Shown: positions 24,942-31,410 of the stretch, one piece after another
Position numbering within the stretch: the first letter of the stretch is position 1
Layout of the letters: every line of letters starts with the position of its first letter
Assembly: GCA_016865985.1 (NCBI GenBank)
Contig: VGNO01000008.1
Coordinates: forward strand, 1 to 34,252
DNA: 34,252 nucleotides
Source of the DNA: Chloroflexota bacterium
Lineage (GTDB): Bacteria; Chloroflexota; Anaerolineae; Anaerolineales; Villigracilaceae
Direction: 5' to 3'
Notes under the pieces: model-generated
The model's database searches: none
What the model was told of the DNA's origin: nothing
Seen by the model: the letters and a program-made list of their open reading frames with translations, nothing else
Program-made: the position numbers and the translations under genes

Positions 24942-25952
24942 ATGAACTGGAAAAACCAAGTTGTGCTCGTCACCGGGGGCACCGGTTCGTTCGGCAAGAA
25001 ACTGACCCGCATCCTGCTGGAAGAATACCAGCCGCGTAAGATCATCATCTTCAGCCGCGACGAACTCAAACAACATGAGATGCGGGTCGCCGGCTACGAA
25101 CATCCCTCCCTGCGTTATTTCATCGGCGACGTGCGCGACCGGGAACGGCTGGTACGCGCCATGCACGGGGTGGATATCGTCGTCCATGCCGCAGCCCTCA
25201 AGCAGGTCCCGGCCTGTGAATACAACCCGATGGAAGCCATCAAGACCAACATCATGGGCACCTCCAACGTGGTCGAAGGCGCCCTGGACGCGGGCGTCAA
25301 GAAAGTGCTGGCGCTCAGCACCGACAAGGCTGTCAACCCGGTCAACCTCTACGGCGCCACCAAACTGGCGGCGGAAAAACTGGTGGTGCAGAGCAACGCT
25401 TACGCCGCCGGCACGTCCACCCGCTATTCCTGTGTTCGCTACGGCAATGTGGTCGGGTCGCGCGGCTCGGTCGTCCCCTTGTTCCTGAAACAGCGCGCCA
25501 GCGGCAAGGTGACCGTCACCGACGAGCGCATGACCCGCTTCTGGCTCTCACTCGAACAGGGCGTCCACTTCGTCATCAACTGCATTGGGCAGATGGAAGG
25601 CGGCGAAGTCTTCGTCCCCAAGATCCCCAGCACCAAGGTCATCGACCTGGCGCACGCCATCGCCCCCGAAGCCAGGGTCGAGATCATTGGCATCCGTCCC
25701 GGAGAGAAACTGCACGAGGCGCTCATTTCGGAAGACGAGGCCCGCAGCGCCATCGAATTGAAGGACTTGTTCGTCGTCCAGCCGGCGGAAGCCTCCTGGT
25801 TCGGTTATTCTTGGAAGGACAAAGGCAAGCCCCTGCCGGATGGATACCATTATTCCAGCGACAATAACGCCTCCTGGCTGGATGTGGCGGGCATCAAAGA
25901 ATTCATTGCCCCCTTCGAAGCCGACCTCCTGGCCGGGAAACTGGCGGGTTGA
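24942..25952 (+). CDS. Polysaccharide biosynthesis NDP-sugar 4,6-dehydratase (PseB/CapE/CapD-like)
   Basis: VVLVTGGTGSFGKKLTRILLEEYQPRKIIIFSRDELKQHEM...AAALKQVPACEYNPMEAIKTNIMGTSNV...LSTDKAVNPVNLYGATKLAAEKL. Confidence 0.92.
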   Translation: MNWKNQVVLVTGGTGSFGKKLTRILLEEYQPRKIIIFSRDELKQHEMRVAGYEHPSLRYFIGDVRDRERLVRAMHGVDIVVHAAALKQVPACEYNPMEAIKTNIMGTSNVVEGALDAGVKKVLALSTDKAVNPVNLYGATKLAAEKLVVQSNAYAAGTSTRYSCVRYGNVVGSRGSVVPLFLKQRASGKVTVTDERMTRFWLSLEQGVHFVINCIGQMEGGEVFVPKIPSTKVIDLAHAIAPEARVEIIGIRPGEKLHEALISEDEARSAIELKDLFVVQPAEASWFGYSWKDKGKPLPDGYHYSSDNNASWLDVAGIKEFIAPFEADLLAGKLAG

Positions 25953-26873
25953 ATGCGCATCCTCGTAACCGGGGCAAGCGGCCTGCTGGGACTCAACCTC
26001 TCGCTGTTGATGGCGGGCGGGCAGCATACCATCGTCGGCGTGGACCGCAGCCGGTTGAGCGGGACACCCTTCGAACTGATCCAGGCCGACCTGCTAGGAC
26101 CGGACGCCTGTCCCCGTTTGCTGGAAGCGGTGCGCCCCGCGGCCGTCATCCACACTGCCGCGCTGGCAAACCTCGAAGCCTGCGAAGCCGACCCGGGGAC
26201 GGCGCGCCTTCTCAACGCCGACCTGCCCGGCGAACTGGCTGCAGCCTGCGCCGGACGCTCCATCGGTTTGGTGCACATCTCCACCGATTCGGTCTTCGAT
26301 GGCGCCCGGGAAGGGATCTATACCGAAGACGACGTTCCCAACCCACCGGGAGTCTATTCCGCCACAAAACTCCAGGGCGAACGGAATGTCCTTTCGGCTT
26401 ATCCTGAGGCCGTCGTGGCGCGCGTCAATTTCTTCGGCTGGAGCCTTTCCGGCAAACGCAGTCTTTCGGAATACTTCTATAACAACCTTTCGTCGTCCCG
26501 GCCTGCCCCCGGCTTCACCGACATCTGGTTCTGCCCGATATTCGTCGGCGACCTGGCCGACACCCTGGTGCGGATGCTGGAAAAAAGCCTTTCGGGACTG
26601 TACCATGCCGTCGGGTCCGAAGCGTTGACGAAGTACGATTTCGGGCTGCGGATCGCCCGCCGGTTCGGCTTCGACCCGGGGCTGGTCGTCCCGGCTTCCA
26701 TCCAGGATTCAGAACTTACCGCCCGGCGCTCTCCCAACCTGCGCCTTTCTGTCCACAAGTTATCCACAGCCCTGGGGAGGGAAATCCCCGGGGTTTCCAC
26801 CGGGATCGAACAGTTTTATACACAGGCCACGCAGGGTTATCCACAGAAAATGCGGAGTTATCAACAGGTATGA
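25953..26873 (+). CDS. RmlD-like SDR (dTDP-4-dehydrorhamnose reductase family)
   Basis: MRILVTGASGLLGLNLSLLM...VIHTAALANLEACEADPGTARLLNADLPGELA...HISTDSVFDG...YSATKLQGERNVL. Confidence 0.88.
   Translation: MRILVTGASGLLGLNLSLLMAGGQHTIVGVDRSRLSGTPFELIQADLLGPDACPRLLEAVRPAAVIHTAALANLEACEADPGTARLLNADLPGELAAACAGRSIGLVHISTDSVFDGAREGIYTEDDVPNPPGVYSATKLQGERNVLSAYPEAVVARVNFFGWSLSGKRSLSEYFYNNLSSSRPAPGFTDIWFCPIFVGDLADTLVRMLEKSLSGLYHAVGSEALTKYDFGLRIARRFGFDPGLVVPASIQDSELTARRSPNLRLSVHKLSTALGREIPGVSTGIEQFYTQATQGYPQKMRSYQQV
26760..26866 (+). promoter_or_regulatory. Cluster of DnaA-box-like 9-mers, all on + strand
   Basis: ttatccaca 26760-26768; ttatacaca 26816-26824; ttatccaca 26837-26845; ttatcaaca 26858-26866. 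Two exact TTATCCACA, one further match to TTWTNCACA, one single mismatch. Last three spaced exactly 21 bp. Confidence 0.65.
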
Positions 26874-26913
26874 CGCCAATGCGAGACAGGCAGGCACAGA
26901 AAACGAGGATTCA

Positions 26914-27981
26914 ATGGAAATAAAGATCGGCAAGCGCCTGATCGGCCCCAACCACCCGACCTATTTCATCGCCGACATCGCCGCCAACCATGACGGCGAC
27001 CTGGAACGGGCGAAACTGCTCATCCGCCTGGCGAAGGAAGCCGGGGCGGACGCGGCCAAATTCCAGAACTTCGATGCGCCCAAGATCGTCTCGGACTACG
27101 GTTTCAGCCACATGAACAGCCAGGTCAGCCACCAGGCTGCCTGGAAGAAATCGGTGGTGGAAGTGTACCGGGCAGCCTCCATCCCCTTCGAGTGGTCGAG
27201 AACCTTGGTGGAGGCGTGCGCCGAGGCCGGCATCGACTATTTCTCGTCGCCCTATGATTTCACCGCGATCGACTTCCTCGACCAGTATGTTCCGGTGTAT
27301 AAGGCCGGCTCCGGCGAGATCGATTGGATCGAGGCCCTGGAACGCATGGCGAGCAAGGGCAAGCCGTTCTTCGTTGCCACCGGCGCTTCGACCATCGGCG
27401 AGGTGCAGAAGGCAGTCCACGCCATCCTGAAGATCAACAAACAACTGGCGCTGATGCAGTGCAACACCAACTACACCGCCAGCCCGAACAACTACGACCA
27501 CCTGCACCTGAACGTGCTCAAAACCTACGCCAGCATGTTCCCGGATGTGATCCTGGGCCTTTCCGACCACACCCATGCGGTTGCGCCGGTGGTGGGTGCG
27601 GTAACCCTGGGCGCACGCGTCATCGAACGGCATTTCACCGACAGTAACGACCGCGAAGGCCCCGACCATAAATTTGCCATGGATCCGGAAAAATGGGCGC
27701 GCATGGTCGAGGAGACCCGCCTGCTCGAACGGGCGCTTGGTTCAGCCGATAAATTCATCGCCGACAATGAGATAGATACCGCGGTGGTGCAACGCCGCTG
27801 CCTGCGGGCGGCACGCGACATCAAGGCCGGCGAGAGGTTCACCCGCGACATGATCGATGTCCTCCGCCCGGCCACGCCTGGCGCGATCAAGCCTGACCAG
27901 ATCGAGAATGTGCTCGGCGCGAAGGCGCTCGTGGACCTGCCATACGGCAAGGAATTGCGCTGGATGGAGTTGGGCTCGTAA
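26914..27981 (+). CDS. NeuB-family N-acetylneuraminate/nonulosonate synthase with C-terminal SAF domain
   Basis: YFIADIAANHDGDLERAKLLIRLAKEAGADAAKFQNF...SSPYDFTAIDFLDQYVPVYKAGSGEI...LGLSDHTHAVAPVVGAVTLGARVIERHFTDSNDREGPDHKFAM. Confidence 0.93.
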   Translation: MEIKIGKRLIGPNHPTYFIADIAANHDGDLERAKLLIRLAKEAGADAAKFQNFDAPKIVSDYGFSHMNSQVSHQAAWKKSVVEVYRAASIPFEWSRTLVEACAEAGIDYFSSPYDFTAIDFLDQYVPVYKAGSGEIDWIEALERMASKGKPFFVATGASTIGEVQKAVHAILKINKQLALMQCNTNYTASPNNYDHLHLNVLKTYASMFPDVILGLSDHTHAVAPVVGAVTLGARVIERHFTDSNDREGPDHKFAMDPEKWARMVEETRLLERALGSADKFIADNEIDTAVVQRRCLRAARDIKAGERFTRDMIDVLRPATPGAIKPDQIENVLGAKALVDLPYGKELRWMELGS

Positions 27982-27991
27982 GGGAGTGTCT

Positions 27992-29110
27992 TTGAACCGC
28001 ATTTTGTATTTTTCGAACGATTATTGCACCCACGATTACCGCTTCCTGTCCTCCCTGGCAGAGAACGGCAACCAGGTGTTCCACGTCCGCTTGGAGGCTG
28101 TCCGCCGCCAGGTGGAGGACCGGCCCGTCCCGGCCGGGGTGGAGATCGTCCATTGGGCAGGCGGGCGGGACGCATTCCGCTGGCGTGACCTGCCCGGCCT
28201 GGTGCGCGACTTCCGGCGGCTGGCGCGCGCGATCCAGCCGGACCTGGTCCATGCCGGGCCGCTCCAGACCTGCGCCTTCATCGCCATCCTCTCCGGTTAC
28301 CATCCCGTCCTGGCAATGTCGTGGGGGTTCGACCTGATGGAAGACGCGGAAAGGAACCGCTGGTGGCGTTGGGCAACGAGGTTTGTGTTGCAACGGGCCG
28401 ATTTCTTCATCAGCGATGCCCGCGTCACCCGCGACCGGGCGGTCGCTTATGGCATGGATGCCGCCCGGACGGATGTTTTCCCCTGGGGCGTGGACCTGGA
28501 GCAGTTCTCGCCATCCGGGGCCGGGCGCCTTGCTCCCGGCGGGTTCACCCTGCTCTGCAACCGTTCCTGGGAACCGCGCTACGGGGTGGACCTGCTGGCG
28601 CGCGCCTTCGTCCAGGCGGCGCGCGCGGACGCCGAACTGCGCCTCATCCTGCTCGGCGGCGGGTCGCAGGCCCAGGTCATCCGCCAGGTTCTGGAGCGCG
28701 GCGGCGTATCCGAACGGGTCACCTTCGCCGGTCAGATCCCTCAGAAGGATCTCCCCCGTTATTACCGGATGGCCGACCTGTACATCTCGCCCTCGCACGT
28801 CGACGGTTCGTCGGTCTCATTGCTGGAAGCCATGGCATGCGGCCTGCCGGCGCTGGTATCCGACATTCCCGCCAACTGTGAGTGGGTGACGGATGGCGTC
28901 AATGGCCGGGTCTTCCCGGATGGCGCGCTGGATGCGCTGGCAGCCGGGATCCTGCGCGCAAAGGAGAATCCTGCTGAAAGCCGGGCTTTCGGGTTGGCTG
29001 CCAGAGAGGTAGCCGAAAGCCGCGCGGATTGGAAGGTCAATTTCCAGCATTTGCTGGGAGCCTACCAGATGACCTTGGATAACCGGAGATTGGTTAGTAA
29101 GAATGAATAG
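27992..29110 (+). CDS. Glycosyltransferase, GT4-like (GT-B)
   Basis: RILYFSNDYCTHDYRFLSSLAENGNQVFHVRLE...YISPSHVDGSSVSLLEAMACGLPALVSDIPANCEWV. Start probably TTG 27992 after AGGGAG, or GTG 27986; ORF track start 27857 is inside neuB-like gene. Confidence 0.88.
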   Translation: MNRILYFSNDYCTHDYRFLSSLAENGNQVFHVRLEAVRRQVEDRPVPAGVEIVHWAGGRDAFRWRDLPGLVRDFRRLARAIQPDLVHAGPLQTCAFIAILSGYHPVLAMSWGFDLMEDAERNRWWRWATRFVLQRADFFISDARVTRDRAVAYGMDAARTDVFPWGVDLEQFSPSGAGRLAPGGFTLLCNRSWEPRYGVDLLARAFVQAARADAELRLILLGGGSQAQVIRQVLERGGVSERVTFAGQIPQKDLPRYYRMADLYISPSHVDGSSVSLLEAMACGLPALVSDIPANCEWVTDGVNGRVFPDGALDALAAGILRAKENPAESRAFGLAAREVAESRADWKVNFQHLLGAYQMTLDNRRLVSKNE

Positions 29111-29849
29111 GAACATTATCTGGAGAATGTCCTGCCTCCTGCTGGCAGCGATGATGCTGTTGAGCGCCTGCGGGAATGCCGGAGCGCCCCTGCCGACCCC
29201 GTCGCCGGTCGACCCGGCTGTGGTCCAGACCGAGGCGGTGGCGACCTTTGCCATGTCGCTGACCCTGGCGGCGCCGACCCATACGCCGACCCCCCTGCCC
29301 AGCGCTACCCCGACCGCCACCGCCACATCCACGCCAACGGCCACGCCGACTGCGACCAATGTGTCCATCCCGGTAAGCGAGTTGATGAAGACCTACATTG
29401 CTTACTACTGGATCTATCCAGTCGAGATGACGACCGCTTGTACCTACTACGTGCTGCCATATATCGCCTACCCAATCGCCGAGCGGACTGGGAATCATGA
29501 GCAGGATATCCGGACGGCATTGAACATCCTTTTCGCGGACCATTCGCCTGGCAGCGGCGTGCTTACCAACCCGATCGGCCGTTCCAACCTTACCATCAGC
29601 GGTTTTCACCGCAGCGGGATCACCTTGAATGTCGAACTATCCGGGACGCTCTACCGGAATTTCTATTACCCCATGACCTGGTCCTATAGTTTATTCTGCC
29701 CTGATAAGCAGGCGCGCGATCAGGTCTTCAGGACCATCTGGCAATTCAAAGACATCCTGGCACAGAACGGCATTACAGATGTCGTCGTCTGGTACGATGG
29801 TCAATTGCTTGATGACCTGCTCCTGAACGATTTTTCCGGCGCGCCGTAG
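29103..29849 (+). CDS. Putative lipoprotein A of a tandem paralogous pair, T/P-rich linker, possible GerMN-like domain
   Basis: LLAAMMLLSACGNAG lipobox, THTPTPLPSATPTATATSTPTATPTATN linker, C-terminal 'DQVFRTIWQFKDILAQNGITDVVVWYDGQLLDDLL'. Confidence 0.75.
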   Translation: MNRNIIWRMSCLLLAAMMLLSACGNAGAPLPTPSPVDPAVVQTEAVATFAMSLTLAAPTHTPTPLPSATPTATATSTPTATPTATNVSIPVSELMKTYIAYYWIYPVEMTTACTYYVLPYIAYPIAERTGNHEQDIRTALNILFADHSPGSGVLTNPIGRSNLTISGFHRSGITLNVELSGTLYRNFYYPMTWSYSLFCPDKQARDQVFRTIWQFKDILAQNGITDVVVWYDGQLLDDLLLNDFSGAP

Positions 29850-29860
29850 AGAGGCTTCGA

Positions 29861-30574
29861 ATGTATTTCAAACCCACAAAAACCACCCTGCTCCTCGGGA
29901 TGCTTGTCTCGCTCCTGGCGGCGTGCGGCAGTCCTTCGGGTGGACTGCCAACTTCGACCGTGGATGTCGCTTCGTTGCAAACAGCCGCAGTTGGAACCTT
30001 CGTCGCCGGGTTGACCGCTGCTGTTCCTACAGCGACCGAGACCCCACCGCCCACGTCCACGCCCACCCAAACAGGGACACCCCTCCCGCCAACGTCGACC
30101 TTTACCGCCACGCCAACGGATGTGCTCTTCAACGTCCTCAACGCAGTTGAAGAGGCCGAGTACCTGCCCACACATATTGCCTTCTATGTCATTTCCCCAA
30201 TTTCAGCGCCAGAGTGTACATACTACATGCGCCCTGTGATAGCCGCGCCGTATCCGCTGAAGACAGGGGATGTGATCGTGGATGTGACGGCGGCTCTGAC
30301 AGCGCTCTTCCGGTTCAATTTTTCCGAACCAGGCGGTTTTCCCAACCCGATGCTGCCTGCCAGTCTACAGGTCACCGGCGTGACCCGCGAAGGCGGGTCG
30401 ATGACAGTCCACCTGACAGGCAACCCAGCCCGGACGGATGATAAATGCACGAACCGCCAGATGCGCGACCAGCTGGTTACGACCATTCACAGGATCGCCA
30501 ACGGGTTTGGTATCTACGATATCGTCATCTGGCTGGACACGAATCTGTATGACGATTACATGATTGGTGAGTAG
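29861..30574 (+). CDS. Putative lipoprotein B of a tandem paralogous pair, T/P-rich linker, possible GerMN-like domain
   Basis: LLLGMLVSLLAACGSPSGG lipobox; colinear with the 29103 gene (IAYYWIYPVEMTTACTYYVLPYIAYP vs IAFYVISPISAPECTYYMRPVIAAP; GITDVVVWYDGQLLDDLL vs GIYDIVIWLDTNLYDDYM). Confidence 0.75.
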   Translation: MYFKPTKTTLLLGMLVSLLAACGSPSGGLPTSTVDVASLQTAAVGTFVAGLTAAVPTATETPPPTSTPTQTGTPLPPTSTFTATPTDVLFNVLNAVEEAEYLPTHIAFYVISPISAPECTYYMRPVIAAPYPLKTGDVIVDVTAALTALFRFNFSEPGGFPNPMLPASLQVTGVTREGGSMTVHLTGNPARTDDKCTNRQMRDQLVTTIHRIANGFGIYDIVIWLDTNLYDDYMIGE

Positions 30575-30582
30575 GACAGGTT

Positions 30583-31410
30583 ATGGATCAGCCGCTGCGT
30601 TGCGTTGCCATCATCCAGGGCAGGATGTCCGCCTCCCGCCTGCCGGGCAAGGTTTTGCGGCCGATCGCTGGCAAGCCGATGCTGGAGCGGGTGGTCGAGC
30701 GGACGCGTCGCGCCAGATTGGTGGACGAGGTGTTCGTCGCAACGACGGCCGATGCCTCGGATGACCCAGTGGCAGAGTTTTGCCAGGGTCGCGGCTATGC
30801 CTGTTGGCGCGGCAGCCAGTTCGACGTCCTGGACCGTTACTACCAGGCGGCGCGCTTGGCCCGTGCCGAGGTGATCATCCGCATCACAGCCGATTGCCCA
30901 CTAATAGACCCGCAGTTGATTGACCTGACGGTGAGTGAGTTCTATCAGGTGAAGGCAGATTTTGCCGCCAACCGGCTCCCACCGCCCTGGCATCGCACCT
31001 ATCCCATCGGGCTGGATGTGGAGGTATGCGCCTTCACTGGCCTCGAACAGGCCTGGCGCGAAGCCGATAAGCCTCACCAGAGGGAACATGTCATGCCGTT
31101 CTTTTATGAAGGCATCCCGGTGGAGGCGGCGCACACGAACCGGCCGGTATCTTTATATACTTCGCCGCGCGGTTTTCGGGTGTTGTACTTGAACCACGAC
31201 CCCGACCTCGGCGCCATGCGCTGGACGGTCGATACACCCGAGGACCTAGATCTTCTGAATTGCATCTATGATCGTTTCAATGGCCGGGATGACTTTTCCT
31301 GGCAGGAGATCCTGGCGTTATTCCAGCGCGAACCGCAACTGGCGCAGGTCAATGCCGCGGTGCACCACAAGGCATACAACGATCTGGATCAGAGAGCCAG
31401 GAAACCATGA
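30583..31410 (+). CDS. Cytidylyltransferase, SpsF/NeuA-like
   Basis: VAIIQGRMSASRLPGKVLRPIAGKPMLERVVERTRRARLVDEVFVATTADASDDPVAEFC...VLDRYYQAARLARAEVIIRITADCPLIDPQLID. Confidence 0.9.
   Translation: MDQPLRCVAIIQGRMSASRLPGKVLRPIAGKPMLERVVERTRRARLVDEVFVATTADASDDPVAEFCQGRGYACWRGSQFDVLDRYYQAARLARAEVIIRITADCPLIDPQLIDLTVSEFYQVKADFAANRLPPPWHRTYPIGLDVEVCAFTGLEQAWREADKPHQREHVMPFFYEGIPVEAAHTNRPVSLYTSPRGFRVLYLNHDPDLGAMRWTVDTPEDLDLLNCIYDRFNGRDDFSWQEILALFQREPQLAQVNAAVHHKAYNDLDQRARKP

Follow-up and report, generated by a model that had tools for sequence, protein, structure and literature searches.

We found that the final 114 bases, at the 3′ end, of a gene for an RmlD-like SDR carry four clear DnaA boxes, arranged head-to-tail on one strand, and that codon usage across relatives makes it almost certain that this array is maintained by DNA-level selection for DnaA boxes. 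By sequence comparison, the array is a variant of extra-origin DnaA-box clusters that is real, selected and embedded in a coding sequence: several close boxes lie outside oriC, beyond chance expectation, and are conserved as DNA among relatives. Published descriptions of the well-studied datA and DARS place them in non-coding DNA; the array lies inside a coding sequence and has been kept across one Anaerolineales family. Because its sites are kept species after species despite change in the protein, the stretch probably helps to control when the chromosome is copied.

The window analyzed here (34,252 nucleotides) is the whole of contig C8 in a 421-contig, 3.2-Mb draft genome (G000). Its SDR gene (25953..26873, + strand) encodes 306 amino acids and matches PF04321 (E 9.5e-54) over residues 1–291; against the RmlD equivalog of NCBIfam, its score falls short of the cut-off. 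Along the + strand, box 1 (TTATCCACA, 26760..26768) is followed at spacings of 56, 21 and 21 bp by box 2 (TTATACACA, 26816..26824), box 3 (TTATCCACA, 26837..26845) and box 4 (TTATCAACA, 26858..26866). An earlier note on this DNA had reported these four 9-mers, the 21-bp pitch of the last three and a different codon phase for box 1, and each observation proved correct: box 1 is read as L-S-T, boxes 2–4 as (F/G/S)-Y-x-Q (F-Y-T-Q, G-Y-P-Q and S-Y-Q-Q, respectively). The weaker match that it had placed at 26749 is likewise present (CTGTCCACA, 26749..26757, +), a word seen in the sequence whose position commonly holds TCCACAAG in relatives; a second weak box-like word, GTTTCCACC (26793..26801, +), has the equivalent TTTTCCACA in some relatives (e.g., G154). 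The pattern TTATNNACA matches the window four times, at these four boxes only, against 0.84 matches expected, a count reached in 3 of 100 shuffles.

To characterize how the array has been conserved, we compared 50 SDR orthologues from one family of uncultured Anaerolineales, most of them 52–78% identical in amino acids; the SDR gene is present in most relatives searched. Nearly all of these orthologues share these 9-mers and their spacing (box 1 is exact in about one-third), with box codons that are rare elsewhere within the same genes. At box 1, Leu270 is TTA in 28/49 (5% elsewhere) and Thr272 is ACA in 33/48 (9%). Box 2 has ACA for Thr290 in 34/37 (9% elsewhere), and where Ala occurs at this residue it is GCA in 9/10. 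Gly295 and Pro297 of box 3 are GGT in 45/47 (14% elsewhere) and CCA in 47/49 (8%), Ser302 of box 4 is AGT in 42/42 (9%), and Tyr296 and Tyr303 are each TAT in 46/46 (48% elsewhere); since the orthologues are related, binomial values for these counts overstate independence. Just outside the boxes, Tyr at position 292 is TAC in 16/21. At 296 or 303, Phe in place of Tyr is encoded by TTT, yielding the TTTTNCACA form.

Residue 304, within box 4, changes in amino acid while conforming to the box. Gln is always CAA (36/50), and the remaining 14/50 all carry NCA (GCA, ACA, CCA or TCA), as TTATNCACA requires, such that the box 4 site reads TTATNCACA in 14 relatives. Furthermore, the gene tails together contain 139 boxes, compared to a mean of 6.35 and a maximum of 15 in 1,000 rounds of within-gene synonymous codon shuffling; the rest of the same SDR genes contains 5 boxes in 37.7 kb. 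These shuffles and codon counts, along with family f13 (where the peptide is kept with other codons and boxes are found in 0/6), led us to reject a peptide repeat as the cause. The earlier proposal of a shared DNA motif, as opposed to a peptide repeat, is thus borne out, as both the 9-mers and their 21-bp spacing are preserved in relatives by rare synonymous codons and by substitutions in the protein; the outcome that would have spoken against it, a tail kept by relatives with the 9-mers or their spacing lost, is not what the family relatives present, as they retain both. Recent copying between species was also rejected, based on the mostly 52–78% protein identity and the freely varying non-box codons.

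We also considered whether the tail itself is unusual, since the earlier note had read it as an extension beyond the RmlD fold. This reading did not hold: the RmlD domain occupies most of the protein, orthologues align to residue 305–306, and several outgroup orthologues without boxes retain a similar tail, so that an extension specific to this SDR protein was discarded. What does differ is individual residues, as Tyr or Phe occupies position 303 in 50/50 family members vs 2/20 orthologues of other families, and Gln291 is found in 50/50 vs 4/20. On these alignments, the array has visibly reshaped C-terminal residues of the SDR protein, for example Tyr303 and Gln291. A wider comparison covered 400 genomes of the order Anaerolineales. 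In families f6, f7, f8 and f14, a different pair with 12-bp spacing, TTATCAACAGGGTTATCCACAG, is present in 22–23/26; this pair sits at the same gene end (loci including L078, L082, L097 and L102). That sister families carry TTATCAACAGGGTTATCCACAG at the end of the SDR gene makes the association between this gene and DnaA boxes older than the family.

The family's boxes also continue beyond the protein. In 11/50 species, extra boxes occur just past the stop codon, where codons impose no constraint; they keep the orientation of the array and are mostly 21–24 bp apart. This repetition of word and pitch in non-coding boxes bears on a quite improbable alternative, namely that the array is explained by some unknown protein or RNA feature in which words resembling TTATNCACA occur by coincidence, or by a DNA-binding protein other than DnaA. 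DnaA as the ligand is predicted from sequence, which leaves such an explanation some room; however, the variation at residue 304 matches the DnaA consensus exactly, and the same word and pitch recur at the probable oriC (below). An RNA structure as the cause of the codon conservation was rejected, as the fold of the array RNA is not unusual (z-score −1.17) and a comparison of this RNA with Rfam gave no match.

DnaA of the host's kind reads TTATNCACA. The host DnaA possesses the ATPase and helix-turn-helix domains (Bac_DnaA_C) and aligns over its full length, GGRDHTTV included, with the DnaA chain of 8btg, which we take to be B. subtilis DnaA; the closest solved structure by sequence is the B. 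subtilis protein. DnaA is therefore very probably the ligand of the array, a prediction from these alignments and the box sequences.

We next describe how boxes are distributed across whole genomes. The window's genome contains 39 TTATNCACA sites, vs 18 for a reversed control pattern, and only two places hold at least three within ~200 bp: the SDR locus and C1:11866-12070. Extending this to 101 relatives, we searched for two TTATNCACA boxes 14–44 bp apart, using the reversed pattern as control. Most family genomes show only the SDR gene and one other locus, and the control produced 2 matches across all 101 genomes. The cluster is accordingly not a product of genome background, a concern raised with the original observation. 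In the window's genome, the other locus (L066; G000:C1:11700-12090) is intergenic-looking and has three TTATCCACA at 20–21 bp plus a fourth, inverted box; an AT-rich stretch there contains TAGTAGTCGTAGTAG, resembling a DnaA-trio. Its box pairs have the same ~21-bp pitch as the array. In the closed genome G057, GC skew (sampled in 10–20 kb pieces) changes sign at the intergenic cluster. From these features, the second pair locus is probably oriC, and the array would be, as first suggested, a DnaA-box cluster away from it. The gene dnaA is on a different contig (C35) in the window's genome, with no boxes nearby, and lies far from the intergenic cluster in closed relatives; dnaA autoregulation was rejected on the former ground. 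A deoxynucleoside-kinase gene, tried as an oriC marker in G008, was set aside because its position there, 926 kb, does not coincide with the skew switch.

The shared box word and spacing of the array and the probable oriC could also be taken to mean that the array is a second or alternative origin, which we regard as extremely unlikely. Only ~40 bp of intergenic DNA lies 3′ of the gene, and neither an AT-rich unwinding element beside the boxes nor a trio-like motif is evident there; moreover, the skew switch of G057 falls near the intergenic cluster, 228 kb from the array.

The position of the array relative to the origin was estimated in two ways. On contigs that hold both, the array lies 62 kb (G051), 107 kb (G006), 155 kb (G040), 228 kb (G057) and 417 kb (G014) from the probable oriC. 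By coarse skew, the distance to the origin is ~0.1–0.45 Mb in G008, 0.3–0.5 Mb in G292 and 0.4–0.6 Mb in G154, where the array is only loosely origin-proximal. As shared-contig distances are biased small, skew is noisy and few genomes contribute, proximity to oriC (roughly 0.1–0.6 Mb in the genomes checked) is suggestive only. The side and orientation of the array relative to the origin vary. A fork-barrier function was rejected because G006, G014, G040, G051 and G057 do not share one orientation of the array with respect to the presumed fork.

Among known systems, E. coli datA offers a close comparison, being a DnaA-box cluster outside oriC that is conserved among relatives (PMC4585315, PMC5295017). 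It is also relatively close to oriC, as the array may be, judging by the distances above. However, datA is a non-coding locus of ~1 kb that has five boxes, depends on an IHF site and stimulates the hydrolysis of DnaA-ATP (PMC4585315, PMC5295017). A datA locus is further characterized by over-initiation upon its loss. The array is not a member of datA as so defined, as it lies in coding sequence and the window holds no match to the IHF consensus WATCAANNNNTTR, which is that of E. coli and hence a weak test for an Anaerolineales host. The regular 21-bp pitch of the array is a further difference. The DnaA-box clusters of B. subtilis, as summarized in PMC5295017 (citing Okumura et al. 2012), are oriC-proximal and thought to bind free DnaA; that summary gives six clusters outside the origin, vs one major cluster here, which is coding and conserved at the codon level across a family. 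Initiation comes early when the B. subtilis clusters are lost jointly.

DARS1 and DARS2 of E. coli likewise lie outside oriC with a compact group of DnaA boxes at their core, are non-coding, and reactivate DnaA with the help of required flanking elements (PMC4585315). An array of this kind would stimulate the release of ADP from DnaA and promote rather than restrain initiation. Three close boxes outside oriC are the basic plan of DARS1/2 too (PMC4585315), but we consider this reading improbable, given that DARS2 needs both IHF and Fis sites, that the E. coli IHF consensus is missing from the window, and that an origin-proximal position resembles datA, not DARS.

The reading that we favor is titration or another form of negative control of initiation by an origin-proximal, coding DnaA-box array, which our analysis rates as about as probable as all alternatives taken together. 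Under this model, DnaA would bind the array cooperatively, as at oriC. Early duplication of the locus, shortly after initiation, would then allow it to withhold DnaA from oriC, or to promote DnaA inactivation, and so limit untimely re-initiation in the manner of E. coli datA or the DnaA-box clusters of B. subtilis. In E. coli, B. subtilis and Streptomyces, initiation is known to be restrained by clusters outside the origin (PMC4585315, PMC5295017), and origin-proximal titration has gained recent support in E. coli (PMC12371093). Several observations count against it. The array sits inside a transcribed gene, and an internal DnaA site in B. subtilis rplB is strong in vitro while in vivo binding there was not detected (PMC4447404); in addition, the array is always in the same operon, which fits operon regulation too. 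The missing IHF consensus and the limits on the proximity estimates given above, with G154 only loosely proximal, also weigh against titration.

Upstream of the SDR gene is pseB (24942..25952, +; UDP-GlcNAc 4,6-dehydratase, TIGR03589 above cut-off), and downstream is a neuB/pseI-like synthase (26914..27981, +; PF03102 and SAF). Across 24942-31410, the window holds pseB, the SDR gene, the neuB/pseI-like synthase, a glycosyltransferase-like ORF and a cytidylyltransferase, corresponding to a nonulosonate-type glycan pathway. By synteny, pseB precedes the SDR gene in almost all relatives, and most of the family has the order pseB-SDR-neuB. Such persistence is what the main rival to titration would predict, in which DnaA on the array regulates the pseB-SDR-neuB-like operon, either by acting between the SDR and neuB-like genes, as a roadblock or attenuator, or through control of a promoter there, so that surface-glycan (nonulosonate) synthesis would be linked with the cell cycle. 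It is also in keeping with this rival that every box faces the direction of transcription, those past the stop codon included, and that DnaA bound in transcribed regions is reported, where PMC11317965 mentions it, to act as a transcription-terminating roadblock. Like the roadblock sites mentioned there, the array has its boxes in a transcribed region, all in one orientation; it is larger and conserved family-wide, and its own role in transcription is a candidate one. We nevertheless hold operon control to be possible but doubtful. Which gene comes next, and how far away (9 to 1305 bp), differs among species while the array stays, and several species have no neuB within the retrieved flank 3′ of the SDR gene (a 20-aa fragment of one alternative downstream gene had no match in a Pfam scan). 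Moreover, an array as elaborate as oriC, and the sole other cluster in most genomes, exceeds what simple regulation would call for.

Titration and the operon need not be separate, and we raise, as a speculative reading, that DnaA sequestration and nonulosonate/surface-glycan synthesis might be coupled at one dual-coded locus, where transcription and DnaA occupancy would possibly be antagonistic. A full-text literature search on the Chloroflexi DnaA box and oriC, judged by title, returned no paper on such a locus, which makes the array a testable replication-control candidate for the phylum, together with candidate oriC sequences. Furthermore, the number of boxes is not the same in all species, nor do boxes spill into intergenic DNA in all of them, so that the family provides a natural comparative test of titration.

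Two individual loci are of additional note. Just 3′ of the SDR gene in G053 (L085), several tandem CTATCCACAGGATACGCTA-like repeats follow the stop codon, as if near-consensus boxes were extending the array. The SDR gene region also has a copy in G042 (L057) with an internal TAG reported by the search, and most boxes of this copy have decayed too.
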